Origin: Vulcanimicrobiota bacterium
GTDB lineage: Bacteria; Vulcanimicrobiota; Vulcanimicrobiia; Vulcanimicrobiales; Vulcanimicrobiaceae
Reading direction: 5' to 3'
DNA length: 64,000 nt
NCBI GenBank assembly: GCA_027306785.1
Contig: DAHUZB010000008.1
Span: 1-64,000 of the forward strand
Numbering within the stretch: position 1 is the first letter of the stretch; every line of letters begins with the position of its first letter. Shown here one piece after another: positions 6,561 through 48,150 of the stretch. The notes under the pieces were generated by a model. That model was given only the letters and a program-made list of their open reading frames with translations, did no database searches and was not told where the DNA came from. The position numbers and the translations under genes are program-made.

Positions 6561-7716
6561 CGCGGCGCGCATGGAGCGCGCGGCCTACGACGACCGCGAA
6601 CCGGGCCTGCGTCGCTCGTACGTCGCCGCGCCGCCCGACACGATGCTCTTTGCCGCGGTTGCGGCGCTCGTGGGCATCGGGCTCGTGATGATCTTCTCCG
6701 CGTCGAGCGCGACCGCGTACGCCGAACACAACGACGTCGCGTTTTACGCCAAGCGCCAGGCCGTGTGGCTCGTGGTCGGCGCGATCTTCGCCTACGGCGC
6801 CTATCGCATCGATTACCACAAGCTCAAACGCGCCGCGCCGTATCTGTTAGCGGCATCCGGGCTCGCGCTGCTCGCGGTGCTCGTGCCGCACGTCGGCATC
6901 TCGGTCAACGGCGCCCGGCGTTGGATCGGTACGTCGTCGCTCACCTTTCAGCCGTCGGAGTTCACCAAGCTCGCGATCGTCATCTACCTCGCCGCCATGC
7001 TCGCGGCGCGCGGCGAGCGTATCACGTCGCTCACCAAAGGGCTCATTCCGCTCTGCGTACCGGTCTTTCTCTTGGCCGTGCTCGTGCTCAAAGAGCCCGA
7101 TATGGGAACGGCGAGCCTCTACGTGATGCTCGCCTTCGCGATGTTCTTCGCGGCGGGCGCACGGCTCGCGCACTTGGGCATGATCTTCAGCGCGACCGTA
7201 CCGATCGTCGTGCTCTCGATCGTCGCGAGTCCGTACAAGCGCGCGCGCATCTTCGCGTTTCTCGATCCGTGGAAGGATCCGCAGAATACGGGCTTCCACA
7301 TCGTGCAGTCGCTGCTCGCGCTCGGCAGCGGCGGACTCTTCGGCGTCGGTCTGGGCGCGTCGCGCGCGAAGTACTTCTATCTGCCCGAGCAGTACACCGA
7401 TTTCATCTTCTCGATCCTCGGCGAAGAGCTCGGCCTCATCGGCGCGCTCGTGGTGGTGGTGCTCTTCGTCGTGCTCGCGTATCGAGCGGTGCGCATCGCG
7501 ATGGCGGCGCCCGATCGCTTCGGCTTCTTTCTCTCGGTCGGCTGCGCGGCGCTGATCGTCATCCAGGCCTTCATCAACATCGGCGTGGTCTCGTCGTCGT
7601 GGCCGGTCACCGGCGTGCCGCTGCCCTTCATCTCCTTCGGCGGCAGTTCGCTGATCGTCAACTTGGTCGCGGTCGCGTTGATCCTCAACGTCGGCCGCCA
7701 TCGTAAAGTCGCTTGA
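6553..7716 (+). CDS. ftsW: Septal peptidoglycan polymerase FtsW (SEDS family)
   Basis: FtsW is the SEDS glycosyltransferase that polymerises lipid II at the septum with FtsI as partner. The 387-residue protein starts at a GTG inside the end of murD. It has roughly ten membrane segments and the SEDS landmarks: LTFQPSEFTKLAIV in the middle, the large periplasmic loop with GVGLGASRAKYFYLPEQYTD, FIFSILGEELGLIG, and the C-terminal PLPFISFGGSS. Position between murD and murG favours FtsW over RodA. The stop overlaps murG by TTGA. Confidence 0.94.
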   Translation: MRNAARMERAAYDDREPGLRRSYVAAPPDTMLFAAVAALVGIGLVMIFSASSATAYAEHNDVAFYAKRQAVWLVVGAIFAYGAYRIDYHKLKRAAPYLLAASGLALLAVLVPHVGISVNGARRWIGTSSLTFQPSEFTKLAIVIYLAAMLAARGERITSLTKGLIPLCVPVFLLAVLVLKEPDMGTASLYVMLAFAMFFAAGARLAHLGMIFSATVPIVVLSIVASPYKRARIFAFLDPWKDPQNTGFHIVQSLLALGSGGLFGVGLGASRAKYFYLPEQYTDFIFSILGEELGLIGALVVVVLFVVLAYRAVRIAMAAPDRFGFFLSVGCAALIVIQAFINIGVVSSSWPVTGVPLPFISFGGSSLIVNLVAVALILNVGRHRKVA

Positions 7717-8816
7717 ACGTCCTCTTCGCGGGCGGCGGAACCGGCGGGCATCTCTACCCCGCAATCGCGATCGCCGATGCGCTCGGCGCGCGCGCGAAGG
7801 TGCGCTTCACGGGCACGGCCGATCGTATCGAGAGCACGATCGTGCCGCAGGCGGGCTATCCGCTCGAAACCGTCGCAAGTCGACCGCTCACGCGCACGCC
7901 GTCGCTCGAACTGTTGCGCACGATCGCCGCGAACGCGCGCGGCACGCTGCAAGCGCTGCGCATCATCGCGCGCGCGAAGCCGGATATCGTGATCGCGACC
8001 GGCGGGTACGTGTGCTTTCCGGTGGTGCTCGCGGCGCGAATGCTGCGCGCGCTCGGCCGCTCGCATGCGCCGATCGCGCTGCTCGAACCGAACGCGCGTC
8101 CGGGGCTCACGAATCGGCTGCTCGCGCCGCTCGTCGACGAAGTCTGGGGCGCCTTCGCCGATGCCGATCCGCGCTTCGCCGGCAAATACGTGCAGACCGG
8201 GATTCCGGTGCGCGCGGCGCTGCGAGCGCTTCCCGCTCGCGATGACGCCAAGGCGCGACTAGGGCTCGCCGCCTCGCGCCGCACGCTGCTCGCGATGGGC
8301 GGAAGCCAGGGCGCCCGCTCGATCAATGACGCGCTCACCGCCCTGCTGCGCAGCAACGGACTTCCCGAGGGATGGCAGGTCGTGCACGTGACCGGCGAGC
8401 GCGAATACGATCGCGTGCGCGCCGCGCTCGGCGGAGGCGAGGCCGCGGTACGGCCGTACCTGCACGATATGAGCGATGCGTATGCGGCGGCCGATCTGGT
8501 GCTCGCCCGCGCGGGCGCATCGACCCTCGGCGAGCTCGCGGCGACCGGACGCCCCGCGGTGCTGGTGCCGTACCCGCATGCGGCCGACGACCACCAGCGC
8601 GCGAACGCCGAGCGCTTTGCAGCGAGCGGCGCGGCGGTGGTGCTCGATGACCGCGATCTCGCGGCGGGGAAGCTGCGCTCGGCGCTGGCCGAGATCGCCG
8701 CTCCGAGCCGCCTGGCCGCGTTCGAGGCGGCCGCCGCGCGCCTGCGCGCAAACGACCCGCTTGCGACTATTCTCGCCCGGATTGATGCACTCGCGGCGCG
8801 AAAGAGCGCATCGTAA
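7713..8816 (+). CDS. murG: Undecaprenyl-PP-MurNAc-pentapeptide GlcNAc transferase
   Basis: MurG converts lipid I to lipid II at the inner face of the inner membrane. The 367-residue protein begins at a TTG that overlaps the ftsW stop; this start puts the glycine-rich GGGTGGHLYPA loop at residue 7, as in the family. A second glycine-rich element, AMGGSQGARSIND, marks the C-terminal GT-B domain, and the UDP-GlcNAc site is seen as ARAGASTLGELAATGRPAVLVPYP. The TAATG junction joins it to murC. Confidence 0.95.
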   Translation: MNVLFAGGGTGGHLYPAIAIADALGARAKVRFTGTADRIESTIVPQAGYPLETVASRPLTRTPSLELLRTIAANARGTLQALRIIARAKPDIVIATGGYVCFPVVLAARMLRALGRSHAPIALLEPNARPGLTNRLLAPLVDEVWGAFADADPRFAGKYVQTGIPVRAALRALPARDDAKARLGLAASRRTLLAMGGSQGARSINDALTALLRSNGLPEGWQVVHVTGEREYDRVRAALGGGEAAVRPYLHDMSDAYAAADLVLARAGASTLGELAATGRPAVLVPYPHAADDHQRANAERFAASGAAVVLDDRDLAAGKLRSALAEIAAPSRLAAFEAAAARLRANDPLATILARIDALAARKSAS

Positions 8817-10192
8817 TGGAACGGCGTCCCGTGTGGCACTTCGTCGGTATCGGCGGCATCGGCATGAGCGCGATCGCGCGCATCCTGCTCGCGCGCGGCG
8901 AACGCGTCACGGGCTCGGATGTGCGCGAGACGCCGCTCGTGCTGCGCCTGCGCGAAGAGGGCGCGACGATTTCGATCGGGCACGACGCGGCGAACGTGGA
9001 CGGCGCATCGACCGTGGTGGTGAGCTCGGCGATCGATCGCCGCAATCCCGAATATCTCGCGGCGCAGCGCGCGAATCTGCCGCTGCTGCATCGCGGCGAA
9101 CTGCTCGCGCGCCTGATCGCCGATCGTTCGGGCGTTGCGGTCTGCGGCACGCACGGTAAGACCACCACGACCTCGATGGTGCACGCGGCGCTGCGCGCGG
9201 GCGAGGTGGACGCGAGTCTCGTGCTCGGCGGCATCGACGCCGCGCTCGGAACCAACGCGCACGACGGCACCTCGCCGTGGTTCGTCACCGAAGCCGACGA
9301 ATCGGACGGCTCGTTCGCGCTGCTCGATGCGCGTATCGCGATCGTTACGAATATCGAAAACGATCATCTCAAGAGCGATGACGAGCTGCCGCAACTGGTG
9401 CGCGCATTCGAGGAGTTTCTCGCGAAACTACCCGAGGACGGTGCGGCGATCGTCGGCGTCGACGATCCGCTCGCCGCATCGCTCGCGGAGCGCCCGCGGC
9501 GCGCGCGCACGGTCACGTTCGGCTTCGGGCCGCGCGCCGACGTGCGTGCGAGCGGCATGCGTTTCGACGGCCTCGGTACCGCATTCGACGTGATTGCGGG
9601 CGGCGTGTGTCTGGGCACCGTCGAACTCGCGGTGCCCGGTGCGATCAACGTGGCCAACGCCCTCGCCGCGATCGCGGTCGCGCGCGAACTCGGCGTCCCG
9701 TTCGCGCGCATCGCCGAGGGTCTGCGCGGTTTCCGCGGCGTGCGCCGTCGTTTCGATATTCTCACGCGCGGCGATCGCATGATCGTCGTCGACGATTACG
9801 CCCATCATCCGACCGCGGTGCGCGCCACGATCGCCGCCGCGCGGCAATACCATCGCGGACCGGTGGTGGTCGCGTTCCAGCCGCATCGGTTCTCGCGTAC
9901 CGCGTACCTCGCGCGTGATTTCGCCGATGCGCTGCACAACGCGGATCACGTGTATCTCGCGCCGGTTTACGCGGCGTCGGAGACGCCGATCCCGGGCGTG
10001 AGCGAGCGATCGATCGGCGAACCGCTCGCGGCGAGCGGAACGCGCGTCACCTACGTCGCGCGCGTGGACGATCTGGAAGAGCGTCTCTTCGACGAAGCGC
10101 CCGCCGGATCGCTCGCGCTGATGCTCGGCGCCGGAAATATCACCGACGTCGCCGCCCGATTGGCGCGGCGCGTCGACGCGCAACGCGTATGA
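8816..10192 (+). CDS. murC: UDP-MurNAc:L-alanine ligase
   Basis: MurC adds L-alanine to UDP-MurNAc, the first stem-peptide step. The 458-residue protein has the N-terminal VGIGGIGMSAIARILL segment, a P-loop at CGTHGKTTTT, and the central ADESDGSF and ITNIENDHL segments expected for MurC. The C-terminal domain has VVDDYAHHPTAV and QPHRFSRTA, which are specific to MurC among Mur ligases. The start shares one base with the murG stop (TAATG) and the stop overlaps murB by ATGA. Confidence 0.97.
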   Translation: MERRPVWHFVGIGGIGMSAIARILLARGERVTGSDVRETPLVLRLREEGATISIGHDAANVDGASTVVVSSAIDRRNPEYLAAQRANLPLLHRGELLARLIADRSGVAVCGTHGKTTTTSMVHAALRAGEVDASLVLGGIDAALGTNAHDGTSPWFVTEADESDGSFALLDARIAIVTNIENDHLKSDDELPQLVRAFEEFLAKLPEDGAAIVGVDDPLAASLAERPRRARTVTFGFGPRADVRASGMRFDGLGTAFDVIAGGVCLGTVELAVPGAINVANALAAIAVARELGVPFARIAEGLRGFRGVRRRFDILTRGDRMIVVDDYAHHPTAVRATIAAARQYHRGPVVVAFQPHRFSRTAYLARDFADALHNADHVYLAPVYAASETPIPGVSERSIGEPLAASGTRVTYVARVDDLEERLFDEAPAGSLALMLGAGNITDVAARLARRVDAQRV

Positions 10193-27019: not shown

Positions 27020-28693
<1,674 letters not shown>

Positions 28694-28874: not shown

Positions 28875-29462
28875 TTACGAACGCGCTAAGGCAATCTCAA
28901 GTTCCCTAAAGAACTTGTCACAAGAGTCAACCCTACGAGCCAAATCAATATCGAATCTTGATGAAAATGCTGGTTGATCAACGCGGGGTTCATATTTGCG
29001 GCGCATCTGCTCACCCAGCCAACCTTTCGCATCACGCCTCGATTCTGGATCAGGATGATCAAAGAGATCGGCTGGTAAACCCCGTTGCCCGGCTAGAGAG
29101 CTGGCAGAAGCTAGAAACCATGTTTCGAACTCACGGTATGCTAGGGCAACTGCGAAAGGGATATCATCGCGGATAGCCTTGATCCTTCTGAGCATGTCCG
29201 GTCCAATCTCTTTTGGGCATTCATCTTCCAAATCAAGTAAAACAATTACGGATCCGTTTCCGTGTGTTTGACGAGCCGCTAGATCGATAGTTCTCAAAAA
29301 CTCTCTTTCATCTCGCCGAAAACGGTCCGCTTTCACCCTGATTGGATCTACGATCGTAAATCCCGAATGCAATCCCTTCGACGCCGCGAAACGTCGTATT
29401 ACTACGGGGACCGCTTCTACTTCACCGTATCCCTCAACGACCGTAACAATTCGGTGACTCAA
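28875..29462 (-). CDS. DUF4276 family protein (TOPRIM-like), partner of AAA ATPase
   Basis: The 195-residue protein has the DUF4276 layout. An N-terminal VTVVEGYGEVEAVPVVIRR carries the first acidic residue of a TOPRIM-like fold, and SVIVLLDLEDECP carries a DxxD-like acidic pair. A later EFETWFLAS segment is common in this family. The start is a TTG that overlaps the ATPase stop (TTGA), so the pair is co-translated. ATPase plus TOPRIM-type effector pairs (PARIS, OLD and Gabija relatives) are known anti-phage systems; DUF4276 pairs are often suspected to be similar. The G+C content and codon use differ from neighbours, pointing to transfer. Nuclease activity is inferred, not shown. Confidence 0.75.
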   Translation of the reverse strand: MSHRIVTVVEGYGEVEAVPVVIRRFAASKGLHSGFTIVDPIRVKADRFRRDEREFLRTIDLAARQTHGNGSVIVLLDLEDECPKEIGPDMLRRIKAIRDDIPFAVALAYREFETWFLASASSLAGQRGLPADLFDHPDPESRRDAKGWLGEQMRRKYEPRVDQPAFSSRFDIDLARRVDSCDKFFRELEIALARS

Positions 29463-30658
29463 TGCTTTTGAGAATCTTCAAATAGCGAAATCTGTTGATG
29501 GCTCTGCTGCTCCATGCTTTCCTCATCAGGTTTCAGTTGATTTGCTCGAAGCAGCTCGCCTGCTGAGTATAGGCCATCCTTAAGCACGGCTCTTGCCGCA
29601 TCGCTGATGTTCGTAAGGACGGTGGCGCCATTGTTTGTGGTTACTGCGCGAATTTGATCGGCGGAAATTCGTTCGTCGTCGAGTAAGTCCGCGGAGTGGC
29701 TTGTTACCAAAATCTGCTTCTGCTGACTTGCGAGGTCTAAAGCTGCTAGCATTACGCTGAGTGCGCCAGCGTGCAATGCGGTTTCAGGCTCCTCGACTCC
29801 GAGCAATGGTATTTTCGGACCTTCCGTATCAATGTCTTGAAAGAGTGATACGAGTATTCCGAGCGCTCGGAGTGTGCCGTCCGACATATTGTTCGAATAA
29901 AAATTCCAGAGGCTCTCGTTTGCCGAAACCTTTTGCCGAAATAGTACCGTCTCGAGAGAGCCGAAATTTTTGACTTCGAGCGAACGTACTTGAGGGACAA
30001 TTTTGCTAAGAAAGTCTTCGATAAGAGTCTTGGCGCTCGGAGAATTCGCAATGATTCGACTTAAGATCGTCGTGATATTGCTGCCGTCTCTGAGGAGGAA
30101 CGGTTCTGCGCTGGGAGGCTGTATTCGCTTGATTGCATCTGGATTTAAGTTGTAGAAGCGCATGCTCGAGAGCGCGTCATATAGTCCTCGGAATGCTTGG
30201 TGACCGGAAATATTGACCAGGTAGAGGCGATCTGTTGCGATGCTCGCTGTTGGCGTGACGTTGGTTGAGAGGCTGCCATTGTCAATTCTGAAAAAGGCCT
30301 CATCCAGGGCACCAAAAATATGGCATTGCTCTGTTTGGACGCTGTAGGTTCCCTTTTCTTTTGCGCCGATGCGGAAAGCGTAGTGGCCGGCTTGCCCTGA
30401 TGGAAGACTGAAATCTAAGCGAATACCGAAGTGTGTCGGATGACCGCTTGATCGCCGCCGAACATCGTTGATTCCGCCCCTGTCGCGTAACGCGTGGTCG
30501 AGCGGGGCCGTCAGGGCATCGCTGACAAATCTTAGCGCGTCAAGGAAGTTGCTCTTACCGCTGCCGTTTGGGCCAACTAAAAAAGTGAGCTGACCTAGAG
30601 CGACATCAGCCTTTGCGATGCTCTTATAATTTGTTAGACGAATACGCTTTAGAAAAAT
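29459..30658 (-). CDS. AAA (SMC/RecF-like, AAA_21) ATPase, probable ATT start
   Basis: Read from 30658, the 399-residue frame begins IFLKRIRLTNYKSI and continues LTFLVGPNGSGKSNFLDALRF (Walker A). The ABC-type signature SDGTLRALGIL, Walker B IPLLGVEEPETALHAGA and the switch histidine ILVTSHSADLLD follow. This is a complete AAA_21-type ATPase of the RecF/OLD kind. No ATG, GTG or TTG exists in frame between the upstream stop (30704-30706) and an internal ATG at 30163, which would remove Walker A. An ATT at 30656-30658, about eight bases after GAGGG, fits the family N-terminus. A five-codon ATG...TAG frame lies just upstream. It probably acts as the sensor or motor for the DUF4276 effector. Confidence 0.8.
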   Translation of the reverse strand: MFLKRIRLTNYKSIAKADVALGQLTFLVGPNGSGKSNFLDALRFVSDALTAPLDHALRDRGGINDVRRRSSGHPTHFGIRLDFSLPSGQAGHYAFRIGAKEKGTYSVQTEQCHIFGALDEAFFRIDNGSLSTNVTPTASIATDRLYLVNISGHQAFRGLYDALSSMRFYNLNPDAIKRIQPPSAEPFLLRDGSNITTILSRIIANSPSAKTLIEDFLSKIVPQVRSLEVKNFGSLETVLFRQKVSANESLWNFYSNNMSDGTLRALGILVSLFQDIDTEGPKIPLLGVEEPETALHAGALSVMLAALDLASQQKQILVTSHSADLLDDERISADQIRAVTTNNGATVLTNISDAARAVLKDGLYSAGELLRANQLKPDEESMEQQSHQQISLFEDSQKH

Positions 30659-36826: not shown

Positions 36827-37309
36827 ATGAAGATCTTTCACCGCCTCGGTGCGGTCGCGTTTGTTCTAACCTTCACGATGGCGACGGCGTTGGCTGCCGC
36901 GCCGAAGGTCGCTCTCCATCTGCAAGGGTTGCTGTTCGCGAAGCGCGCCGGAAAGACGGTAACGGTTCCGATCGATCGTCTGCTTAAGGCGGGCGACCTG
37001 CTGCTCTATCGCATCGACGCGCGCAACGAAGGCAAAGCCGCTGCGCTCGGACTCGCGCCCGTCGGCAAAGTTCCGGCGCGCACGGCGTTCGTGCGGGTGG
37101 CTACTGCACCGCGCGGCTCGCATGTCGAGTTCACGCTCGACGGCACCCATTGGTCGGCGCATCCGATGATTCGGGTGATCGGCCCCAACGGCAAACCCAC
37201 CGAAAAACCCGCGCCGCTCGCGATGTATCGCGCGGTGCGCTGGTCGCTCACCACTCCCTTTCCGGCCGGCGCTACAGCCGCCTTTGCCTATGAGGTACGC
37301 GTGAAATGA
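36827..37309 (+). CDS. Small secreted beta-rich protein, first gene of the surface-protein operon
   Basis: The 160-residue product has a signal peptide (MKIFHRLGAVAFVLTFTMATALAAA) and a ~135-residue mature part with VALHLQGLLFAKRAGKTVTV and GDLLLYRIDARNEG, a pattern like the start of DUF11-type 'conserved repeat' domains. The start follows AAGGGG by about six bases. The stop overlaps the next gene by ATGA. I do not recognise a family beyond that. The strict coupling suggests a secreted subunit or periplasmic helper for the surface proteins that follow. Confidence 0.7.
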   Translation: MKIFHRLGAVAFVLTFTMATALAAAPKVALHLQGLLFAKRAGKTVTVPIDRLLKAGDLLLYRIDARNEGKAAALGLAPVGKVPARTAFVRVATAPRGSHVEFTLDGTHWSAHPMIRVIGPNGKPTEKPAPLAMYRAVRWSLTTPFPAGATAAFAYEVRVK

Positions 37310-39792
37310 TCCAACGCTTCAGCAGGCCGATCGCGCTGTTCGCGGCACTCGCGCTCGCGCTCCAAATCGGAGCGCCGATGCCCGCCGGCGCGGCCAACGG
37401 TCACGACGATCCCGGTACGCAGATCACGAACAACGCCACTGCGACCTATAAAGACGCGGCCGGCAACACCTACAACACCACCTCGAATACCGTCACCACC
37501 ACGGTGCAGAACGCGCCGACGCTCACCAACACGGCGGGCACCGGCGTCACGTACGCGCCGGGGCAGGTGGCCACCGATACGTTCACGCTGAGCAACACCG
37601 GTAACGGCGCGGGCTATTTCCAAATCTCCGGTAATTCCTCGGCCCCGACCACGAGTTCCGACGCGGTGCTCGGCGGTGCGGATGCCGCATCGGCGACGCT
37701 CGGCAACGGCGCGTCGAGCTGTACAACACCGGTCGGCTCGCAGGCATCGCCGTGCAAATACTCCGCGACCATCGGCGGCACCACGTACTACTTCACGAGC
37801 CTCGACGGCACGAGCGACGATAACTCGCTCGACTACTGGCTGAAGAATACGAATACGGCCACCGCGGCGGGCGCATCGATCGTTGTCAACGTCTACTACG
37901 CGATCAGCAACAGCGCGACGACGCCGGGCACCGTCACCTCGACGATCTACGCAACGGTCACCTATCCGGCGTCGGGCAGTGCCCCAGCCGAGACCTCGAC
38001 CTCGCAGTCGGCGACGCAGTCGAACACGATCAACGCCGATGCGCGTCTCGATCTCTACAAACACAGCGTGCAGAACGGCACGACCGGCGATATCACCTAC
38101 ACGATCAGCGCGCATAACGGCGGCGCCTTTGCGGCGAAGGATCTGCAGTCGGTGAAATCGCTGCTCGGCGCGAGCGTGGCGGGCGTGCTGCTCACCGACC
38201 ACATTCCGCAGTTCGGCGGCGCGCCGCTGAAGCTCAGCAACTCCGGCACCGTCACCGTCAACACGAACGCCACCTACGGCTACGCGACCGGCGCGGTCGC
38301 CGACGTGTACTACACGACCTCGGCCAACGGCACGTCCGGTTGGACGAAGGCCGCGGGCGCGTTGCCGACCGACGGCAGCGTCACCTACATCGGCGTCTTT
38401 CTGCACGGCGGCACCTGCGGTACCGCGGGCTATGAACTCTGCGCCGATGCGAGCCATCCCACCAATCCCGGCAATAGCAACGTCGCGTCGGCCGCCGCGG
38501 TGCAGATCGTCTTCACCGTCGCGCAACCGACCGGTCCCGGATCGGCCAACGCGGGCTCGGTAACGAACATCGCGAACGGCGTCATCGGCGACAATCAGCC
38601 GACGGAGCACATTCTCGGACCCGGTATCCCGGGCGGAACCAACGACTCGACCTCGTCGACGCCGCTCACCACGACCGGCCAAGGCATCAACAACACGACC
38701 AACACCTCGGTCGGCGGTGCCTCGAACAAGACCTCCGATCAGGCGCTCGCGGCCTATCAGCCGCTCACCGGACCGCTGGGGCAGCCGCAGTCGTCGGGTT
38801 CGTACGACGGTGCGGTCTCCGCAAGCACCAACAACGACTTCACCGCATATCCCTTCGGACTGAGCGGCGACAACGTGGTGAACACCAGCACCGTCGCCGG
38901 TACGCCGACGACGACGGTGACGCTCGGATCGTCGCAGACCGTCTGCGTGCCGAACACGCTCGAGAACAGCGGCAATCACGACGACTCGTTCAACATCATC
39001 GCGAACGTGCCGACCGCGTACGCGATCCCGAGCACCTCGGGCGGCGCTACGGTCTCGGGTTGGAAGGTCGGCGTCTACTCCGATAGCGCCTGTACCGCCG
39101 CGCTCGGCGGTGCGACCGACGGCGCGTCGTCGTCGACGGCATCGAACGTGGCGATCGTCTCGGGTAGTTCGCTGAACTACTACGTGAAGTTCGTCGTCCC
39201 GGCCGGTGCGCCGTACTTCACGCGCTACGATGCGCTCGTGCACACGGTCAGCGTCGGCGATAACACCAAGACCAACGACACGCACGACGATCTCTACTCG
39301 GGCTTCGTTGCGCTCACCAAATCGCAGAGCGTCACGAGCAACGGCTGTCCGACGGGCGTCTCGCCGTCGTATGCGGCGGGTACGGTCTGCCCGACGGGCG
39401 TGCTGCAATATACGGTCGACTACCGGAACCTCGTGCTCGGCACCACCGATACGAACGCGTCGTTCACCGCGGTAGTGACGCAGGCGGGGTCGCTCGCGAT
39501 CACCGATGACGGTACGGTCACCGCGTCGGCCAGTTCGACGACCACGCCGAACTGGGCGTCGTTCGCCGCGATGAACTCGGCGCCGACCGACTCGGCGAGC
39601 GGTTCCACCTACACGTACTACAGCGGAATCCCGGCGACCGGCGCCGGAACCTCGACGTGGAGTTCGACGGCGACGAAGTTCGTCGATCTCGTCGGCGGCG
39701 CGTCGTTCCAACTCGTGCCGAAGAACTATCTCGCACCCTCGGGAACGCAAGGAAACCAGGGTACCGTTACGTTCTCCGTCACGGTGAAGTAA
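37306..39792 (+). CDS. Secreted Thr/Ser-rich surface protein with DUF11-like repeats (surface protein 1)
   Basis: The 828-residue product has a signal peptide (RPIALFAALALALQIGAPMPAGA), then repetitive beta-sandwich segments rich in Thr, Ser, Gly and Asn. The first has TQITNNATATYKDAAGNTYNTTSNTV, also found in the next-but-one protein's start. The C-terminal ~340 residues (GSYDGAVSASTNNDF to GTVTFSVTVK) are homologous to the C-terminus of the glycine-rich protein at 45153. Cysteines occur in pairs (CPTG..CPTG), suggesting disulphides outside the cytoplasm. It is probably a cell-surface or fibre-forming protein. Confidence 0.75.
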   Translation: MIQRFSRPIALFAALALALQIGAPMPAGAANGHDDPGTQITNNATATYKDAAGNTYNTTSNTVTTTVQNAPTLTNTAGTGVTYAPGQVATDTFTLSNTGNGAGYFQISGNSSAPTTSSDAVLGGADAASATLGNGASSCTTPVGSQASPCKYSATIGGTTYYFTSLDGTSDDNSLDYWLKNTNTATAAGASIVVNVYYAISNSATTPGTVTSTIYATVTYPASGSAPAETSTSQSATQSNTINADARLDLYKHSVQNGTTGDITYTISAHNGGAFAAKDLQSVKSLLGASVAGVLLTDHIPQFGGAPLKLSNSGTVTVNTNATYGYATGAVADVYYTTSANGTSGWTKAAGALPTDGSVTYIGVFLHGGTCGTAGYELCADASHPTNPGNSNVASAAAVQIVFTVAQPTGPGSANAGSVTNIANGVIGDNQPTEHILGPGIPGGTNDSTSSTPLTTTGQGINNTTNTSVGGASNKTSDQALAAYQPLTGPLGQPQSSGSYDGAVSASTNNDFTAYPFGLSGDNVVNTSTVAGTPTTTVTLGSSQTVCVPNTLENSGNHDDSFNIIANVPTAYAIPSTSGGATVSGWKVGVYSDSACTAALGGATDGASSSTASNVAIVSGSSLNYYVKFVVPAGAPYFTRYDALVHTVSVGDNTKTNDTHDDLYSGFVALTKSQSVTSNGCPTGVSPSYAAGTVCPTGVLQYTVDYRNLVLGTTDTNASFTAVVTQAGSLAITDDGTVTASASSTTTPNWASFAAMNSAPTDSASGSTYTYYSGIPATGAGTSTWSSTATKFVDLVGGASFQLVPKNYLAPSGTQGNQGTVTFSVTVK

Positions 39793-39808
39793 CCGCACGG
39801 GGATCGGG

Positions 39809-41908
39809 TTGAAGCGTCTTTCCATCCTCGCCGCGGCCGCGATCGCGATGTCGGGACTCGTCGTCCCGCATCGCGTCGCGGCCGATTTGGCGGGTGGAAC
39901 GACGATCGTCAATTCGGCCTCCGTCACCTATCGCGACGCGAACGCCCATCGCTACGCGAGCACGAGCAATGCGGTCGTTTCGACGGTCGCCGAACTCTCG
40001 GCGATCGTGATCACGCCGTATAAAACGGCGCCCCAAGCCTCGACCGACGGCGTGGCCGTCGGATCGAACGCGGTGCGCACGTTCACGATCACCAACACCT
40101 CGAACATCACCGATGCCTACCAACTCTCGTCGATCGACGTGGGCTCGCTCAAACTCCTCGCGACGCATTGGCTTACCGCCTCCGGTGCAATCGCAACCGG
40201 CGTCGGCGGCGCGCTTTCGCCGAGCGTCGCGCCGGGTGCATCGATCCAAGTCCAGCTCGTCATCGCCACGAACGGAATGCAGGTCGGCCAATCGCAGAGC
40301 GTCCTGATCGGCGCTCACACCACCGTGACCGGCACGGCGAACGGACTTGCGAGCGCGAAGGGTGAGGATTGGATCGTCGGGGCGAGCGGACCCAGTCTCA
40401 CCGGCCCGAGCGGCCCGAATACGCAGATTTCCAAAACCGTCAACGGTGTTGCGCTCGTGCAGACCCAGCCGGGTGTTACCGTTCATTTCGCGATCGCGAT
40501 GCAGAACAGCGGTGGCGCACCCGCGACGAACGTTCGCGTTACCGATCCGGTTCCGCAACAGCTCACCATCGTCGCGGGCTCCGCGAGCATCAACGGGCAA
40601 CCGGCGGGATCGCAGGCGAGCGTGAGCGGGCAGACGATCGTGTTCACCGTGCCGACGCTCGCGCCGGGCGCATCGCTCGTGCTCGCGTTCGATGCCACGC
40701 TCCCGAGCGGCAGCGCGCTCGGCGAATCGTTCGTCAATATCGCGAGCGTGAGCGCCGACAATACGGCCACCTCGCCGACGACCTCGACGAGCGTGCTCGC
40801 GGGCATCGCCGACATCGTCTTCGACGGATACACGCAGGCGCCGGTGCAAGCTGCGACCGTTTCGCTGCTCGATGCCTCCGGTGCACCGCTCATGCGCGCC
40901 GTGCAGACCGGAACGAACGGCGCGTACGGCTTCGAACTGCCGGTCAGCGCGATCGGTAGCGGTGCGACGTACTATCTTACGATCTCGGCTCCCAACTATC
41001 TCAACCGACGTATCGAACTGCAGTTGAAGCCGTCGCAAGCGCCGGGGTTCTACGACGTTACCCAGATCTCGCTCGACGGGCAGCCGCTTGCGATCGCGGG
41101 CGGCCTCACGCTCACGACCACGCACGTGTCGCTGCACGATCTGCTCGGCATCTTCGGCAATCTGCCGCTCTTCGCGGCGCGCGCGATCGCGGTCACCAAG
41201 ACGGTCGACCGCAGCGCCGCATCGGCGGGCGATGCGCTCACCTACACCGTCACGGTGCAGAATCAAACGCCGAACACGCTCTCGGCGCTGCGCGTCGACG
41301 ACGAGCTTCCGCCCGATCTCGTCTACGTGCGCGACAGCGCGCGTCTCGACGGTACGGCGCTCGAGCCGACGATCTCGGGACGCGCACTCGTGTGGACGAT
41401 TCCGCAGGCCGCCTCGGGGCAGACGTATACGATCACTTATGCGGCCACGATTCTCGGCAGCGCACCCGCGGGCGCGACGCTCACCAACGTGGTCAGCGCA
41501 ACGGCGCCTTCGGGTATCGGTGGTACCGTAAGCGGCGGCGCGAGCGCGAGCGTGCAGGTGCTCGACGGACCCTTTAGCCCGCGTCGCATCGTCACCGGAC
41601 GCGTCTTTCTCGACGTCGAGCACACCGGATACTTCACGCACGGCGACAAGCCGATTCCGGGCGTGCGCGTCGTCATGGAAGACGGGAGTTTCGCCGTCAC
41701 CGATGTCAACGGGATGTTCTCGTTTCCGTCGGTGCGGCCGGGCGAGCACGTGCTCCGCCTCGATCCGCTCACGATTCCGCGCTATGCGCGCGTGCAGCGC
41801 GACGCGCCGATGAACTCCACGCGTGCCGCGCAGCGCCTGCTGCACGGCGTCCTCGACGACGCGACGATGGAAGACGTGGAGTTTGCACTGGAGCCGCGCA
41901 CGCGATGA
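39809..41908 (+). CDS. Secreted protein with DUF11 and carboxypeptidase-like repeat domains (surface protein 2)
   Basis: The 699-residue protein starts at a TTG 16 bases after the previous stop, preceded by GGGGATC. A signal peptide ends near RVAADLAGG. Repeats of the DUF11 type are clear: ISKTVNGVALVQTQPGVTVHFAIAMQNSGG and AVTKTVDRSAASAGDALTYTVTVQNQTPN. Between them is a carboxypeptidase-regulatory-like segment (VQAATVSLLDASGAPLMRAVQTG), and a Cna-B-like domain (RVFLDVEHTGYFTHGDKPIPGVRVVMEDG) closes it. Its stop overlaps the barrel gene by ATGA, which suggests that it is assembled with the barrel. Confidence 0.8.
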   Translation: MKRLSILAAAAIAMSGLVVPHRVAADLAGGTTIVNSASVTYRDANAHRYASTSNAVVSTVAELSAIVITPYKTAPQASTDGVAVGSNAVRTFTITNTSNITDAYQLSSIDVGSLKLLATHWLTASGAIATGVGGALSPSVAPGASIQVQLVIATNGMQVGQSQSVLIGAHTTVTGTANGLASAKGEDWIVGASGPSLTGPSGPNTQISKTVNGVALVQTQPGVTVHFAIAMQNSGGAPATNVRVTDPVPQQLTIVAGSASINGQPAGSQASVSGQTIVFTVPTLAPGASLVLAFDATLPSGSALGESFVNIASVSADNTATSPTTSTSVLAGIADIVFDGYTQAPVQAATVSLLDASGAPLMRAVQTGTNGAYGFELPVSAIGSGATYYLTISAPNYLNRRIELQLKPSQAPGFYDVTQISLDGQPLAIAGGLTLTTTHVSLHDLLGIFGNLPLFAARAIAVTKTVDRSAASAGDALTYTVTVQNQTPNTLSALRVDDELPPDLVYVRDSARLDGTALEPTISGRALVWTIPQAASGQTYTITYAATILGSAPAGATLTNVVSATAPSGIGGTVSGGASASVQVLDGPFSPRRIVTGRVFLDVEHTGYFTHGDKPIPGVRVVMEDGSFAVTDVNGMFSFPSVRPGEHVLRLDPLTIPRYARVQRDAPMNSTRAAQRLLHGVLDDATMEDVEFALEPRTR

Positions 41909-44900
41909 AGCCGGCGCAGCGCTTGAGCGTGCTCGCGCTCGCGATCGCCTTGATCGCGGCGTCTGCGCCCGGCCCCTCGCCGTCGCCCGCGCCGGTTGAT
42001 CTCGCGCACTTGGAGCCGACGGTCGCGAGCAATCTCTTCGTGCGCTTCGCGTCGCCCGATGCGGGTGCCGCGTCGCCGATCGAAGCGTCGGAGATCGTGG
42101 TCGAGACCACGCCGGGCGCGGTGGTGAAGCTTTGGGCCGACGATACGCCCGTCCCCGCATCGAGCATCGGCAAACTCGTCGTCGATCGCAAACGGAACAT
42201 CGCGTCGTTCCACTTCTACGGCGTGCATCTCGCGCCCGGACCGAACATCTTGCGCGCGCAGGCATTCGGCGCGCACGGTGCGGTCGGTGCGAGCGCGACG
42301 CGCACGGTATACGGACCGGGTGAAGCGTCGGCGATCGCGGTCAGCGTCGTGCAGCGTCTCGTCGCCGATGGCACGACCGTGGTGCCGATCAACGTGACCG
42401 TTACCGACCGGTACGGCCATCCCGCCGCGCCGTCGGAACGCGTGCGGATCGCGCTGCTGCGCGGTGACGCGTCGCTCGTGGGCCTGCCGGTCGCGACGCC
42501 CGCCCCGGGGCCGAACCCGCATCGCTCGCCCGATGTCGTCGATTCGCCCGATTCGCGCAATCGCGTCCTGCAAGAGCCGCTGCCGGTCGGCGGCTATCTG
42601 CTCGTCAAAGTGCTGCCGGGCACCGTCGCCGGCCCGCTGGAATTCGAAGTTCGCGTCGGCAGTGCATACACGCGCCGAACCTTTTACGTGCAGCCGTACG
42701 TGCGCCCGGCGTTCGTCAACGGACTCGTCTCGCTCGGCGCCGGCAGCGTTCCCGAAGCGATCGACGGCACCGGCACCTACGACGGCGGCGGCGCGCGCAA
42801 GCATCGGCTGGGACTCTTTGCATCGGGCGACGTCCTCGGCTCGTTGCTCACGCTCGCCTACGAATCGCAGAATCGTCTCGCGCCCGTCTCGTCGTTCGGG
42901 TCGTTTCAGGAAGATCCGAACGCGCGTCCCTATCTTACCTACGGCGACGCATCGCGCGTCGATCAGCCCTACCGCTCGAACGATCATCTCTACGCGCGCG
43001 TCGATCGCGGGCGCAGTTCGCTGATGTGGGGCGAGTACGCCGAGCAGTTGGGGCCGAGCGATTTGGGCAGTTACTCGCAGCTCTTGAGCGGAGCGCACGC
43101 GGTGCTCGGCATCGGCGCCGCCACGCTCTCGGGTTTTACCGCGCGCAACGATCAGGCCTTCGTCTCCGATTTGCTTCCGCTCTCGGGCCTGGCCTCGCTC
43201 ACGCGCGCGCTCGAGCCGAATATCGTCGTCGGATCGGATCAGCTCAGCGTGATCACGCTGGATCGTACGACGGGGCTGCAGATCGCCTCGACGCCGCTCG
43301 TGCGTAACGTGGACTACACGATCGACTACGCGACCGGGATCGTCCGCTTCGTCAATATCCCGTTGCCGTACGACGCGAACTTCAATCCGCAAGAGCTCTC
43401 GATCCACTACGAATATCAGGGGCCGGGGGTTCGTTCGCGCACCACGGGCGGTGACGTCCGACTCTCGCTTTCGCGCGATGCGCACACGACGCTCCTGGCA
43501 AGCTACTTCAACGACGTACAGGGTTCGGCCAATCTCGCGGTCGCCGCGCAGTCGTTCGAACGCACCTGGCAGAACGGCGGCATCACGATCTCGCACGCAT
43601 CGAGCAACGGATCGCTTGCGAATCAGGCGAACGCGCAATCGCTCGGCGGCGTCGCGGTTCCGAACGCGGGCGGCGCCCTATCGGCGAATCTCACGGAGCG
43701 CAACGCGCAGGATACCCTCGCGCTCGCTTATCAAGCGACGAGCGCCGGATACGACGATCCGTTCGGCGGATTTAGTTCGCCCGGCGTCTCGGCGTATCGC
43801 GCGGCGTGGACGCACGGGGCACTTGCGCGCGGACTCGTCTCGCTCGAATACACGGGCGAGCGACAGAGCGGCATCGGTCCGACGTCCACCCAGCACGACC
43901 TCGCCGCTCGCCTCGTGCGCGCGCTCGGACGCTACGTGACCGCGAATGTGGGCGTGCTTCATCACGATCAGCACGTAAACCTGAGCGCGACGCCCGCGCC
44001 GTCCTCCGGCGTGCCCGCCTTGAGCTCGACGGGGCAGACGCAGGCCGAGGCCGGGATCGCCTATCGCTCGCCGCATCGACTCGGCGTCACGTTGCAGGAA
44101 CGCGTCACGCTGAGCGGATCCGACATCGGCTCCACGCAGCCGTCGCAGACGATGGCGGAGGTGGACTACGCGCTTTCGCAACGCGGGCGACTCTTCGCGC
44201 GCGAGTTGTGGAGCCGAGCGCCGTCGGCGACGTTCGCGAATACGACGAGCAATCTCGGCATCAGCGGCTCGTCGACGCACGCGTTTCAAGCCGGTATCGA
44301 CGATGCGCTCTCGCCCGCGACGACGCTCAGTTCGAGCTACATCGTCAATCAGACCGGCAACGGCGTCAACGTGTACGACGCGCTCGGCCTCGGCGAGCAT
44401 CTGCATCTCTCGAAACGTCTGAGCGGCGAACTCGAAGTGCAGGCGGCGAAAGCGATCGGGTCGGGTGCGCAAGGCTTCACGCTTTCGTCCGCGCAGTTCG
44501 CCTATGCGGCGCCGGGGAACGCCTTGCGCGCGAGTCTCGGCTATCAGATTCGCGCGGGCGGCAGCGGCGGCGCCACGTTCAACGCGGGTCTCGCGGGACA
44601 CCTCTCGCCGTCGGTCGGAGCGATGGGCTTCTTCACGCGCGCGTACGGTAACGGATTCGCGGCCATCAACGATCGCTTCTCGCTCGCGTACCGCCCGCTC
44701 GGAAACGATCGCTTCGTGGGGCTCTTCGGCTATACGCGCTCGAACGGTGCCTCGCAGAGCGGACTCGCGAGCGGCGTCTATTCGCTCGACGGTATCTACC
44801 GCCCGACCGAGCGTACGGAGCTCGCGGCACGCGTCGCATTCAAGCAGGATTCCGCCGCCGGGCTTCCGGTCGACTCGCTGCTGTACGCGGCGCGCGTGCG

Positions 44901-45156
44901 GCGCTATCTCGGCTCGCGATTCGATCTCGGTGCGGAGGTGCGTACGATGATGGTTCCCGGCGCCGTCGATGCGCGCACGACGAGCCTTGCGCTCGAAGCC
45001 GGTGCGACGCTCGGCTCGCAGACGCGCTTCGCGCTCGGATACAATCTCGCCGGGAGCGTCGATCCCACGCTGACCGACGCGCCGTCGCGGCGCGGCTTCT
45101 ACGTGACCGTCACCACGCTCGTCGATCGGATTTTCGGCTGGGGGAAAGGCCAATGA
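41905..45156 (+). CDS. Large outer-membrane beta-barrel protein with Ig-like N-terminus
   Basis: The 1083-residue exported protein (signal ending near AASAPG) has an N-terminal Ig-like domain with SPIEASEIVVETTPGAVVKLWADDTPVP and VTVTDRYGHPAAPSERVRIALL. From about residue 265 to the end it is a long succession of alternating amphipathic strands with turns, ending in an aromatic strand (RGFYVTVTTLVDRIFGW), as outer-membrane barrels do. A VRNVDYTIDYATGIVRFVN segment recalls motifs in SprA-like and other DUF11-linked barrels. Start and stop both overlap neighbours by ATGA. It is the probable outer-membrane export or anchor component for the surface proteins. The barrel call is by pattern only. 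Confidence 0.7.
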   Translation: MKPAQRLSVLALAIALIAASAPGPSPSPAPVDLAHLEPTVASNLFVRFASPDAGAASPIEASEIVVETTPGAVVKLWADDTPVPASSIGKLVVDRKRNIASFHFYGVHLAPGPNILRAQAFGAHGAVGASATRTVYGPGEASAIAVSVVQRLVADGTTVVPINVTVTDRYGHPAAPSERVRIALLRGDASLVGLPVATPAPGPNPHRSPDVVDSPDSRNRVLQEPLPVGGYLLVKVLPGTVAGPLEFEVRVGSAYTRRTFYVQPYVRPAFVNGLVSLGAGSVPEAIDGTGTYDGGGARKHRLGLFASGDVLGSLLTLAYESQNRLAPVSSFGSFQEDPNARPYLTYGDASRVDQPYRSNDHLYARVDRGRSSLMWGEYAEQLGPSDLGSYSQLLSGAHAVLGIGAATLSGFTARNDQAFVSDLLPLSGLASLTRALEPNIVVGSDQLSVITLDRTTGLQIASTPLVRNVDYTIDYATGIVRFVNIPLPYDANFNPQELSIHYEYQGPGVRSRTTGGDVRLSLSRDAHTTLLASYFNDVQGSANLAVAAQSFERTWQNGGITISHASSNGSLANQANAQSLGGVAVPNAGGALSANLTERNAQDTLALAYQATSAGYDDPFGGFSSPGVSAYRAAWTHGALARGLVSLEYTGERQSGIGPTSTQHDLAARLVRALGRYVTANVGVLHHDQHVNLSATPAPSSGVPALSSTGQTQAEAGIAYRSPHRLGVTLQERVTLSGSDIGSTQPSQTMAEVDYALSQRGRLFARELWSRAPSATFANTTSNLGISGSSTHAFQAGIDDALSPATTLSSSYIVNQTGNGVNVYDALGLGEHLHLSKRLSGELEVQAAKAIGSGAQGFTLSSAQFAYAAPGNALRASLGYQIRAGGSGGATFNAGLAGHLSPSVGAMGFFTRAYGNGFAAINDRFSLAYRPLGNDRFVGLFGYTRSNGASQSGLASGVYSLDGIYRPTERTELAARVAFKQDSAAGLPVDSLLYAARVRRYLGSRFDLGAEVRTMMVPGAVDARTTSLALEAGATLGSQTRFALGYNLAGSVDPTLTDAPSRRGFYVTVTTLVDRIFGWGKGQ

Positions 45157-48044
45157 ACGTACGCCGCTTCGCGCGCCGCTGCACCGCGAACGTGATCGCG
45201 CTCGCCATCGCCGCGAGTACGTTCGGCGGCGCGTTTCTCGGCACGACGCTGCCCGCGCAAGCCGCGAGCATCTGTGCGACGCCGGGTAAAGACGGATCTC
45301 CCGGCACGCTGACCGGTGTCTACGATTCGTATTTTCAGCCGGCGATCGGCACGTACGCGGCGGGATCGACGAGCATCACGCTCGCGAACGGTCCGACCGC
45401 GCCCGATACCAACGGCGGCGGCGCGGGCACCGCGATCACCGCGGGCGACCTGTTGCTGATCATCCAGATGCAAGACGGGTCGTTCAATTCGACCAACGGT
45501 CCGTCGTACGGCGACGGCACGAGCGGCAGCGGCTACACGTCGCTCTCGAGCGCCGGGTTGTACGAGTACGTCACGGTGACGAGTGTCGCGGGCAACACGG
45601 TGAACATCGCGGGAACCGGGTCCGGCGGCGGCTTGATCAACACGTATCACGAAGAGGCGGCGACCGGCACGAGCGGTCAGGAGACGTTTCAGGTGATCCG
45701 CGTTCCGCAGTACGTCACCGCCACGCTCTCGAGCAACTTTACCGGTGCGTATTGGGACGGCGTAACCGGCGGCGTCGCGGGGCTCGACATCGCCTCCACG
45801 CTCAATCTCGGCGGCGCGAATCTCTATGTAACGGGTGACGGCTTTTCCGGCGGCGGCGTGACCGTCGCGACGAGTTCGGGGACGGGCTTCAGCAACTCCG
45901 ATTATGCGGAGAGTTCGCTCTCGCTCGGCGGTGGTCAAAGCGCTCCCGCCGACGGCAGCAAAGGCGAGGGCGTGATGGGCACGCCGAATTACGAATTTTT
46001 CTATACGAATTTCACCGCGCCGAATGCGCCGACGTCGCCGAACGTCGTCAACAACGGCGCCGACGGATACCCCGGCGGCGATCAAGGCCGCGGCGCACCC
46101 GGTAACGCGGGCGGCGGCGGCACCGACGAAGATCCGCCCGCGAACGACCAAAACACGGGCGGCGGCGGCGGCGGCAACGGCGGCGCGGGCGGCAACGGCG
46201 GCTATGCATGGACGCCGACCTACAGCGGCAGCACGGCGGAGTACGTGCAATACCCCTACTCGAGCGGCACCAAGACCTACTCGGCGAGCAACTTTCACGA
46301 TATCGGCGGTCGCGGCGGCGCGGCGCTCACGCCGAGTGTCACGCGTCTCTTCATGGGCGGCGGCGGCGGCGCGGGCAGCAATAACAACGCCTCCAACAAC
46401 AACAGCTACAACAACTACGGCAGCTCCGGGGGAACCGGCGGCGGCATCTTGATGATGCGCATCGCGAATGCGAGCGGTGCGTCGGCGACGGTCTATGCCA
46501 ACGGCACGACCGGACTTGCGCCCGCGAACGACGGCGGCGGCGGCGGCGGCGCGGGCGGGAGCGTGGAGATCACGTCGCCCTCCACGTTCAGCGGGATTAC
46601 CGTGCACGCCGACGGCGCGGCCGGAACGACGGCGAATGCGGCGCCGAGCGCGGTGACGCAGCAGCACGGGCCGGGCGGCGGCGGCGGCGGCGGCGCGGTG
46701 CTCACCTCGAGTCCCGTAACCGCGAGCGTCAACGGCGGCGCCTCCGGCACGACCACGACGGCCGCCACGACTTACGGCGCGACGGCCGGTACCGCGGGGA
46801 TCGCGAGCACGATCAGCGCGTCATCGATTCCGGGCGTCGCGTCGGGTGCGGAGTGCGGCTCCGGCGGCGGCACGAATACGCTGTATACCGGGCCGTACGA
46901 TGCGGCCGATACGACGTATCGTGGCGCCGATCTCACCGGCTCGTTCGACGGATCGGTCGCGGCGACGAACAACAATGACTTTACCCCGGCGCTGATCCCG
47001 CTCGTCGGTTTAAATGCGGTCAATTCGTCGAGCACGCCGGGATCGCCGAACGGGAACGTGCTCACCTTCGCCACCGTGCCGACGATCGACGTTCCGCACG
47101 TGTTGTACTACAAGGAGAGCGATCGCACCAGTCACGTCATTACGCTGACGGCGCAAGCACCGACCGGGTGGACGGTGCAGATTTGCAGCGATTCCAGCCG
47201 CAAGAACGGCAACGGCGGCGCGCTCAGCCTTGCACCCTCGAGCGCCAACTGCACGACCAACGGTACGATTTCATACAACACGTGTTCGGGCGGAAACGGC
47301 GGCACGAGCGCGTGGATCAGCGTTGCAGCCGACAATCCGGCGGCCAACACCTACACCGCGCAATACTGCAAGAACCGCTACAACGGCACGCAGTCGGTCG
47401 CCTATTGGACGCGATACACGCCGAGCACGTCGGTCACGGCGTTTACGCGCTACGACGGCAGCATCGCCGTTTACGATGACGGAGCTCCGGCATCGTTCAA
47501 CTCGACGCACGACGAGCTCTATGCGGGCGACGTCGCGCTGACGAAATCGGTGGCGGTGGTCGGTAACGGCTGCCCGAGCGGCGCGTCGCCGGCATACACT
47601 GCTCTCGGCGTCTGCCCGGGCGGCGTGCTGCGCTACACGATCGACTATCGCAATATCGTCGCGGGCGGCGGGCTCGGAACCGAAGGCAACGTCACGTCGA
47701 TCATGAGCGGCGCGGCGACGGCGGCGGGCTCATTTACGATCACCGATAACGGAACGCTCTCGGGCGTCTCGCAGACGGCGACGCCGAACTGGTCGACGTT
47801 CACCGCCGGACTACTGAGCGCGCTCGGCGCGGGCGTGACGAACACGCTCTGCGGCAGCGGCGGGAATCCGTGCGGCGACACGACGAGCGGCACGACGTTT
47901 GCTTACGATGCCGGCCACGCAAGCGGCCTCGGCGCCACAAGCTTCACGGCGACGATCGGAGGAGCGAGCTTTCAGCTCTACCCGATGGGCGTGAGCGGGA
48001 CGACCGGCCAGGGCACGATCACCTTCGCGGTCACCGTGAAGTAG
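45153..48044 (+). CDS. Large glycine-rich secreted surface protein
   Basis: The 963-residue product has a long signal peptide ending near TTLPAQAAS. The N-terminal ~280 residues include TAGDLLLIIQMQDGSFNS and AGLYEYVTVTSVAGNTV, a module seen in other large exported bacterial proteins. Residues ~290-570 are extremely Gly/Asn-rich (GGGGGGNGGAGGNGG and GGGGGGAGG runs). The C-terminal ~340 residues repeat the module ending surface protein 1 (ALTKSVAVVGNGCPSG, GGASFQLYPMG, GTITFAVTVK). It is the last gene of the coupled five-gene set and is a candidate extracellular adhesin or fibre subunit. Confidence 0.75.
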   Translation: MNVRRFARRCTANVIALAIAASTFGGAFLGTTLPAQAASICATPGKDGSPGTLTGVYDSYFQPAIGTYAAGSTSITLANGPTAPDTNGGGAGTAITAGDLLLIIQMQDGSFNSTNGPSYGDGTSGSGYTSLSSAGLYEYVTVTSVAGNTVNIAGTGSGGGLINTYHEEAATGTSGQETFQVIRVPQYVTATLSSNFTGAYWDGVTGGVAGLDIASTLNLGGANLYVTGDGFSGGGVTVATSSGTGFSNSDYAESSLSLGGGQSAPADGSKGEGVMGTPNYEFFYTNFTAPNAPTSPNVVNNGADGYPGGDQGRGAPGNAGGGGTDEDPPANDQNTGGGGGGNGGAGGNGGYAWTPTYSGSTAEYVQYPYSSGTKTYSASNFHDIGGRGGAALTPSVTRLFMGGGGGAGSNNNASNNNSYNNYGSSGGTGGGILMMRIANASGASATVYANGTTGLAPANDGGGGGGAGGSVEITSPSTFSGITVHADGAAGTTANAAPSAVTQQHGPGGGGGGGAVLTSSPVTASVNGGASGTTTTAATTYGATAGTAGIASTISASSIPGVASGAECGSGGGTNTLYTGPYDAADTTYRGADLTGSFDGSVAATNNNDFTPALIPLVGLNAVNSSSTPGSPNGNVLTFATVPTIDVPHVLYYKESDRTSHVITLTAQAPTGWTVQICSDSSRKNGNGGALSLAPSSANCTTNGTISYNTCSGGNGGTSAWISVAADNPAANTYTAQYCKNRYNGTQSVAYWTRYTPSTSVTAFTRYDGSIAVYDDGAPASFNSTHDELYAGDVALTKSVAVVGNGCPSGASPAYTALGVCPGGVLRYTIDYRNIVAGGGLGTEGNVTSIMSGAATAAGSFTITDNGTLSGVSQTATPNWSTFTAGLLSALGAGVTNTLCGSGGNPCGDTTSGTTFAYDAGHASGLGATSFTATIGGASFQLYPMGVSGTTGQGTITFAVTVK

Positions 48045-48150
48045 AGGAAAGCGAGCGGGCGAGCGTTCGCGTTATTCTTTCGCCCTTCTCTATTGCGCCG
48101 TACACTGGTACTCCAATCGTACTAGTCGATAGTGGGAGTGAATTGTTCGT

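Follow-up and report, generated by a model that had tools for sequence, protein, structure and literature searches.

A conserved five-gene set with a DUF11 stalk protein and a predicted outer-membrane barrel: a possible surface-display operon

The question raised by this locus was whether five adjoining genes for secreted proteins, read in an earlier note as a possible surface-assembly operon with an outer-membrane barrel, form a genuine set, and what that set might build. The window, meaning the whole stretch of DNA that was analyzed, comprises 64,000 nucleotides of contig DAHUZB010000008.1 from a Vulcanimicrobiota bacterium. The five genes form a run at 36827–48044, all in the same direction on the + strand, where that note placed them:

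36827–37309, +, gene 1 (small), open reading frame of 160 aa
37306–39792, +, gene 2 (S1), open reading frame of 828 aa
39809–41908, +, gene 3 (S2), open reading frame of 699 aa with a TTG start
41905–45156, +, gene 4 (barrel protein), open reading frame of 1083 aa
45153–48044, +, gene 5 (glyS, glycine-rich protein), open reading frame of 963 aa

Between S1 and S2 there is a gap of exactly 16 bases (39793–39808), and the other three junctions, at 37306, 41905, and 45153, are exact 4-base ATGA overlaps. By inspection, each of the five N-termini looks like a Sec signal peptide, in agreement with the earlier note, and none of the five contains a lipobox. The description of the products as DUF11 surface proteins held in the strict sense for S2 alone, the one protein in which DUF11 scores above the Pfam cut-off. 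Pfam matches identified the flanking genes as an EamA-type transporter upstream and an aldehyde dehydrogenase downstream, the latter starting at 48151. One further feature lies between glyS and the aldehyde dehydrogenase gene:

48051–48070, +, terminator-like hairpin, 7 bases 3' of glyS, a consensus match only

Because 12 terminator-like sites were observed in the region against 7.6 expected, this hairpin is weak evidence by itself. A sigma-70 promoter scan gave no site, and Rfam gave no match in 30000–54000.

Conservation of the set was determined first within the phylum. The barrel was present in 30 of 149 genomes and missing from the other 119, and is therefore accessory. Strong S2 matches and full-length barrel matches occurred in exactly the same 20 of 118 relatives. 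S1 was found in those 20 plus G048, whose contig ends within S1, and small in those 20 plus G048 and G047; the profile for small (A4) gave E < 1e-40 in 21 of the 118 relatives, plus G047. Of the 20, 17 have small, S1, S2, and barrel in this order and without a break on a single contig; in G003, G009, and G060 the gene set was interrupted by contig ends. Short gene overlaps were also found in relatives, and in G047, from the window's own family, a single open frame of 1663 codons contains both the S2 and the barrel matches. Kinship inflates these counts, so clusters from other phyla weigh more.

Recognizable versions of the set were found in Deinococcus, Thermus thermophilus HB8, Cyanobacteria, Proteobacteria, and one Oligosphaeraceae bacterium. 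In the Deinococcus, Thermus, and cyanobacterial clusters, the assigned genes were matched at E values of 1e-17 to 1e-124 by profiles built without these sequences; the matches to the profile for small ranged from 1e-23 to 1e-36. In Deinococcus ficus, small, S1, S2, and barrel follow one another as they do in the window, a beta-helix protein comes fifth, and there is a 4-base overlap between S2 and barrel. The cluster TTH_RS10905–TTH_RS10925 of T. thermophilus HB8, on pTT27, keeps this order for all five genes, with 4-base overlaps between S2 and barrel and between barrel and gene 5. Two cyanobacterial plasmids carry S1, small, S2, and barrel, to which the annotated one adds a gene 5 with DUF11 repeats, and the S2-barrel overlap in Synechococcus NIES-970 is again 4 bases. 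Because the overlaps recur in relatives and the gene order is kept both there and in other phyla, the five genes are not chance neighbors. The joint conservation on which the earlier interpretation depended was thus observed within the phylum and across phyla.

In Gammaproteobacteria and the Oligosphaeraceae bacterium, one gene, preceded by small and S1-like genes, encodes S2 and barrel together as a protein of about 2000 aa. The recurrence of such a fusion, G047 included, where other genomes have a 4-base overlap, is good evidence for joint action of the two, and we conclude that S2 and the barrel are probably one unit. Since they are one polypeptide in Gammaproteobacteria and the Oligosphaeraceae bacterium, anchoring is favored as the role of the barrel toward S2.

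The barrel protein scored above cut-off for none of the Pfam or NCBIfam families, and its sequence had no homologue among solved structures at E values up to 1. An AlphaFold2 model built with 27 homologues (pLDDT 72.3, pTM 0.55) and structure searches gave two regions, and a third feature is the most conserved motif of the barrel:

42028–42702, +, two Ig-like domains with an intimin D00-D0-like fold, residues 42–266 (model and structure search)
42706–45123, +, predicted outer-membrane beta-barrel of about 40 amphipathic strands, residues 268–1073 (model and structure search)
43312–43410, +, most conserved barrel motif, residues 470–502, DYTIDYATGIVRFVNIPLPYDANFNPQELSIHY

Residues 268–1073 of the model contain 42 strands of at least 7 aa, and the alternation of hydrophobicity along the strands had a z of 3.2 relative to within-strand shuffles. 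Structural neighbors found with Foldseek and VIA-align were porins, SlpA, LptD, FimD, and SprA, with low TM-scores that back the outer-membrane class but neither a closest relative nor a strand number; SlpA aligned with the model over 461 residues (Z 11.6). In the motif, D470, Y471, Y475, G478, D490, P495, and Y502 are invariant, the homologues from Gammaproteobacteria and Oligosphaeraceae included. We conclude with moderate confidence that gene 4 encodes two Ig-like domains followed by a large barrel of outer-membrane type with roughly 40 strands, a count that may be off. The earlier call of a barrel for the 1083-aa protein is consistent with this model of an Ig-like pair and C-terminal barrel and with its outer-membrane structural neighbors. 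Neither of the two findings that the earlier note named as grounds for refutation was made, and its interpretation is supported in part. A soluble repeat protein was also considered; it was not backed by the model, the structure search, or the amphipathicity of the strands.

Orientation of the barrel was suggested by OmpA domains, which bind peptidoglycan. Such a domain precedes the barrel in Gamma- and Betaproteobacteria, is encoded by a separate gene adjoining the barrel gene in Acinetobacter, and in one cyanobacterium gave a weak match after the barrel, below the Pfam cut-off; in all, it is fused to or beside the barrel at four distant loci. The binding of these domains to peptidoglycan suggests that the barrel ends face the periplasm, and hence that the fused S2 end starts there.

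The domain order of S2 is GTxIxNxA, DUF11, CarboxypepD_reg, DUF11, SdrD_B, and a conserved C-terminal segment, RLLHGVLDDATMEDVEFAL. DUF11 scored 97 bits (Pfam cut-off 24.6), with two domains:

40424–40768, +, S2 DUF11 domain 1, predicted isopeptide triad K209/D246/N310
41186–41506, +, S2 DUF11 domain 2, predicted isopeptide triad K464/D498/N560
41600–41761, +, S2 SdrD_B-like domain, 32.1 bits against a cut-off of 29.7

All three residues of the first triad are kept in 16 of 16 S2 sequences; K464, D498, and N560 are kept in 14, 14, and 15 of the 16. A search of the PDB with the S2 profile gave a sole match, 9IFR, a solved DUF11/CLIPPER domain in which a Lys-Asn bond lies beside a catalytic Asp and which, when it lacks the Lys, has its melting point lowered from about 80 to 45 °C (PMC12617251). 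The S2 triads consist of the same residues as those in 9IFR. Judged by sequence, S2 belongs to the CLIPPER/DUF11 kind, and its two DUF11 domains are predicted to hold Lys-Asn isopeptide bonds that would stiffen it as a stalk. The C-terminal segment of S2 recurs at the end of a giant S2-like protein at a second locus of the same genome, on contig C33. This locus lacks small, S1, and gene 5; it has only a barrel and the S2-like protein, whose 2771 aa include 13 DUF11 and 13 DUF7933 repeats.

The other three proteins are less readily classified. Small is a predicted secreted protein with a single DUF11-like domain, which is divergent and lacks the Lys-Asp-Asn triad, together with a Pfam match, below threshold, to a related DUF family. 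Its profile also gave local, weak matches to sialidases in the PDB. S1, predicted to be secreted, is all-beta and has no Pfam match; its N-terminal GTxIxNxA domain is common to S2 and its C-terminal module to glyS. The AlphaFold2 model of S1 (pLDDT 65.6) is a chain of beta-sandwich-like domains whose last strand, 818–827, lies at the C-terminus, and a structural search with it returned generic Ig-like matches only. GlyS, also predicted to be secreted, has further parts: besides the module common to S1, it contains a glycine-rich middle that resembles AgmC_N; it has no Pfam match above cut-off. Assignment of glyS as the gliding protein AgmC was rejected, because AgmC_N covers only part of the glycine-rich region at 76 bits, against a cut-off of 275. 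Gene 5 is the least conserved of the five. A glyS-like protein adjoins the barrel in most relatives; at four loci (L046, L047, L050, and L051) its place is taken by a different protein, and at two (L038 and L043) there is no gene 5 beside the barrel. No adhesive Pfam domain matched any of the five proteins, and such domains diverge fast.

Small, S1, and most gene 5 proteins stop exactly at a C-terminal beta-strand with the pattern [F/Y]xVxV[K/N]:

37289–37306, +, C-terminal strand motif of small, YEVRVK (end ...FAYEVRVK)
39772–39789, +, C-terminal strand motif of S1, FSVTVK
48024–48041, +, C-terminal strand motif of glyS, FAVTVK

When a single fixed pattern was applied, this ending was found in 17 of 18 small, 18 of 20 S1, and 6 of 9 glyS sequences, as compared with 5 of 219 for other genes of the same loci, 0 of 24 for barrels, and 1 of 22 for the S2 group, where the single case is a gene 5 protein placed there by weak similarity; these counts describe and do not prove, because the pattern was picked after the sequences had been viewed, the homologues are not independent, and most of the control proteins are cytosolic. 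Endings akin to it were present in Deinococcus (FRVTVK, FRVKIN, FRTTIQ) and in cyanobacteria (YQVRVR, FQRRIN, FRAKVK), and those of Thermus are similar. The strand may be a recognition tag, or it may be no more than the strand with which an Ig-like domain ends. This exact ending, common to small, S1, and gene 5 and not to S2 or the barrel, is the new observation made here.

The interpretation toward which we lean, by a modest degree, is that of a surface-display and assembly operon, in which barrel and S2 form an outer-membrane platform that displays small, S1, and gene 5 as a fiber or adhesin. Gene 4 would supply the predicted large beta-barrel of the outer membrane, its two Ig-like domains lying in the periplasm. 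S2 would dock on it through the conserved C-terminal DUF11-SdrD_B-RLLHG..D...FAL module; that the two work as one unit is strongly suggested by the gene fusions. The isopeptide-locked DUF11 domains predicted from the conserved triads would make the stalk stiff. Small, S1, and gene 5 would be beta-sandwich clients of this platform, exported by Sec and perhaps then through the barrel, and the C-terminal strand of a client would either be recognized by the platform or complete the fold of a neighbor. The product would be an anchored fiber or adhesin at the surface, with gene 5 as a variable, lineage-specific end piece; both export by the barrel and a layer, fiber, or adhesin as the product are suggested by the domain types, the shared C-terminal strand, and the literature on DUF11.

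A narrower role, which we consider unlikely, is that of an anchor only: the barrel would hold the S2 stalk in the outer membrane, as in a fibrillar adhesin that has its own barrel in the manner of an autotransporter, and small, S1, and gene 5 would take another route to the surface or decorate S2 without crossing the barrel. The S2-barrel fusions agree with this, as does the second locus, in which a barrel and a giant S2-like protein occur without the other three genes; DUF11 arrays, moreover, form known surface filaments (PMC13319060). However, in the five-gene loci small and S1 are conserved with the barrel as tightly as S2 is, and small and S1 have the common C-terminal strands, which S2 does not.

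Less probable still is a translocon resembling the type IX secretion system (T9SS), with the barrel as a wide protein-conducting pore and the client C-terminal strand as the secretion signal. The likeness to SprA/Sov consists of a large outer-membrane barrel, a DY-type motif, and clients with a beta-strand end. The very large size predicted for the barrel, a short match to SprA around the DY motif (E 0.0024), the appearance of SprA at rank 24 of the Foldseek matches, and the confinement of the strand motif to the clients all speak for it. Against it, the SprA/Sov family scored 15.1 bits on the barrel with a cut-off of 200; LptD, FimD, SlpA, and porins fit the model equally well or better; and no T9SS partner or motor gene was found in the cluster. 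Por_Secre_tail, the type A C-terminal domain, had no match in the genome, which is 96% complete, and was detected in the control, Bacteroides ihuae. A search for GldL/GldM gave no match in the genome, and none in the control genomes either. Membership of the T9SS was rejected, since neither the SprA model nor Por_Secre_tail was matched.

A third alternative is an envelope tether or scaffold of the SlpA or OmpM kind. Here the barrel would link outer membrane and cell wall, and the beta-sandwich proteins would assemble into a lattice that is periplasmic or resembles an S-layer. The long SlpA alignment agrees with this, as do the OmpA domains found with the barrel in Proteobacteria and in cyanobacteria, but it is very improbable given that the window's five proteins have no SLH or OmpA domain, that presence of the barrel in the phylum is patchy, unlike that of an essential tether, and that the giant S2-like versions, if extended, would exceed the periplasm.

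We return to the display or assembly operon and its standing among known systems. One near likeness is to the CLIPPER fibrillar adhesins with an OmpA anchor (Acinetobacter silvestris B9T28_05395, PDB 9IFR; PMC12617251), which share the triad-bearing DUF11 with S2; the proteobacterial relatives of the operon also have OmpA beside the barrel. The operon differs in that its stalk has a gene of its own, which is paired with a large barrel and accompanied by three more conserved secreted proteins; PMC12617251 describes no barrel or operon, and the word "barrel" is absent from its text. The grappling-hook proteins GhpA/GhlA of Aureispira and Litorilinea are long DUF11 arrays that act as surface filaments, and the giant DUF11 protein beside the barrel on contig C33 resembles them, the comparison being one of architecture. 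The hook, however, is one giant protein, with 49 DUF11 domains in GhlA, whereas S2 has 699 aa and two; the available part of the source (PMC13319060) mentions no barrel operon.

Resemblance to chaperone-usher systems may lie in a barrel encoded beside Ig-like secreted subunits and in the presence of FimD among the structural matches, the TM-scores of which are low. No Usher or PapD-type chaperone matched in Pfam among the five proteins at E values up to 0.1, and a donor-strand extension of the subunit type was not identified. The type Va autotransporter beta-domain of Pfam had no match in gene 4 or its fused homologues. Deinococcus SlpA (of the S-layer deinoxanthin-binding complex) and OmpM combine a large barrel with N-terminal periplasmic domains, as is predicted for gene 4, and differ in their gene neighbors and in the SLH domain, for which Pfam gave no match in the five proteins. 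Because these defining families were unmatched, the set stands apart from the T9SS, chaperone-usher, autotransporter, and SLH-tether systems; a likeness in working principle to any of them is possible.

No description of a barrel-DUF11 operon was found in the limited literature searched. The parts, DUF11 stalks and outer-membrane barrels, are known, and the conserved set that they form here itself appears to be undescribed. A bolder form of the display or assembly reading, which we offer as a tentative and rather doubtful proposal, is a pathway common to several phyla and outside the numbered secretion systems, in which a barrel of about 40 strands and an isopeptide-locked stalk would export strand-tagged clients and build a surface fiber. 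If so, Eremiobacterota, Deinococcota, Cyanobacteriota, Proteobacteria, and one Oligosphaeraceae bacterium would share a widespread, unnamed surface assembly machine, the proteins of which have so far been annotated only as "DUF11 domain-containing" or "hypothetical", and which would explain how some DUF11 stalks are held in, and perhaps cross, the outer membrane. The proposal is directly testable, because T. thermophilus HB8, which is genetically tractable, carries one version of the set on its megaplasmid. No mention of TTHB179–TTHB182 was found in the limited literature searched; the exonuclease gene preceding the HB8 set appears, from its position and from papers on TREX-type enzymes, to be TTHB178.

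Seven relatives (loci L036, L038, L040, L043, L044, L045 and L049) have one and the same gene pair next to the cluster or its flank; judged by eye, the two genes encode an aldo/keto reductase and a protein of RidA type. This pair is missing from the cluster site in the window's genus; the comparison suggests that there was an old common site and that a move came later.

The genome of the window carries a second barrel gene on contig C33, followed by a gene for a giant S2-like protein of 2771 aa with 13 DUF7933 and 13 DUF11 matches (L033:9310-12183 and L106:386-8701). This pair is found without the small gene, S1 or gene 5, and similar pairs are present in the relatives G054 and G021. On the minus strand of contig C35 of the same genome, two neighbouring proteins of ~1100-1180 aa contain DUF11/NEW3/CARDB domains (L107:2802-6347 and 6486-9791); most relatives, including those that lack the barrel, match them through similar open frames of ~1100 codons.

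In Deinococcus radiodurans MP1 (L112:3590-11799), S2 and the barrel are annotated in several pieces with overlapping reading frames, and a separate small gene is absent from the annotation. This version of the cluster looks broken or mis-assembled. On the Thermus thermophilus HB8 megaplasmid pTT27, type I-E CRISPR genes lie a few kb from the homologous cluster (L113:1363-15719). The fused Gammaproteobacteria protein, in which S2 and the barrel form a single polypeptide, has matches on plasmids of Sinorhizobium, Phyllobacterium and Devosia. Those that match its barrel part alone carry the annotation TonB-dependent receptor, which may be a mistake.

Elsewhere in the window, two mutually overlapping genes on the minus strand (28875-30163) adjoin groEL (27029-28693) within the stretch of minimum GC content (0.545). 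By eye, one resembles an AAA/RecF-like ATPase and the other a DUF4276-like protein, and they may be a defence-type pair.
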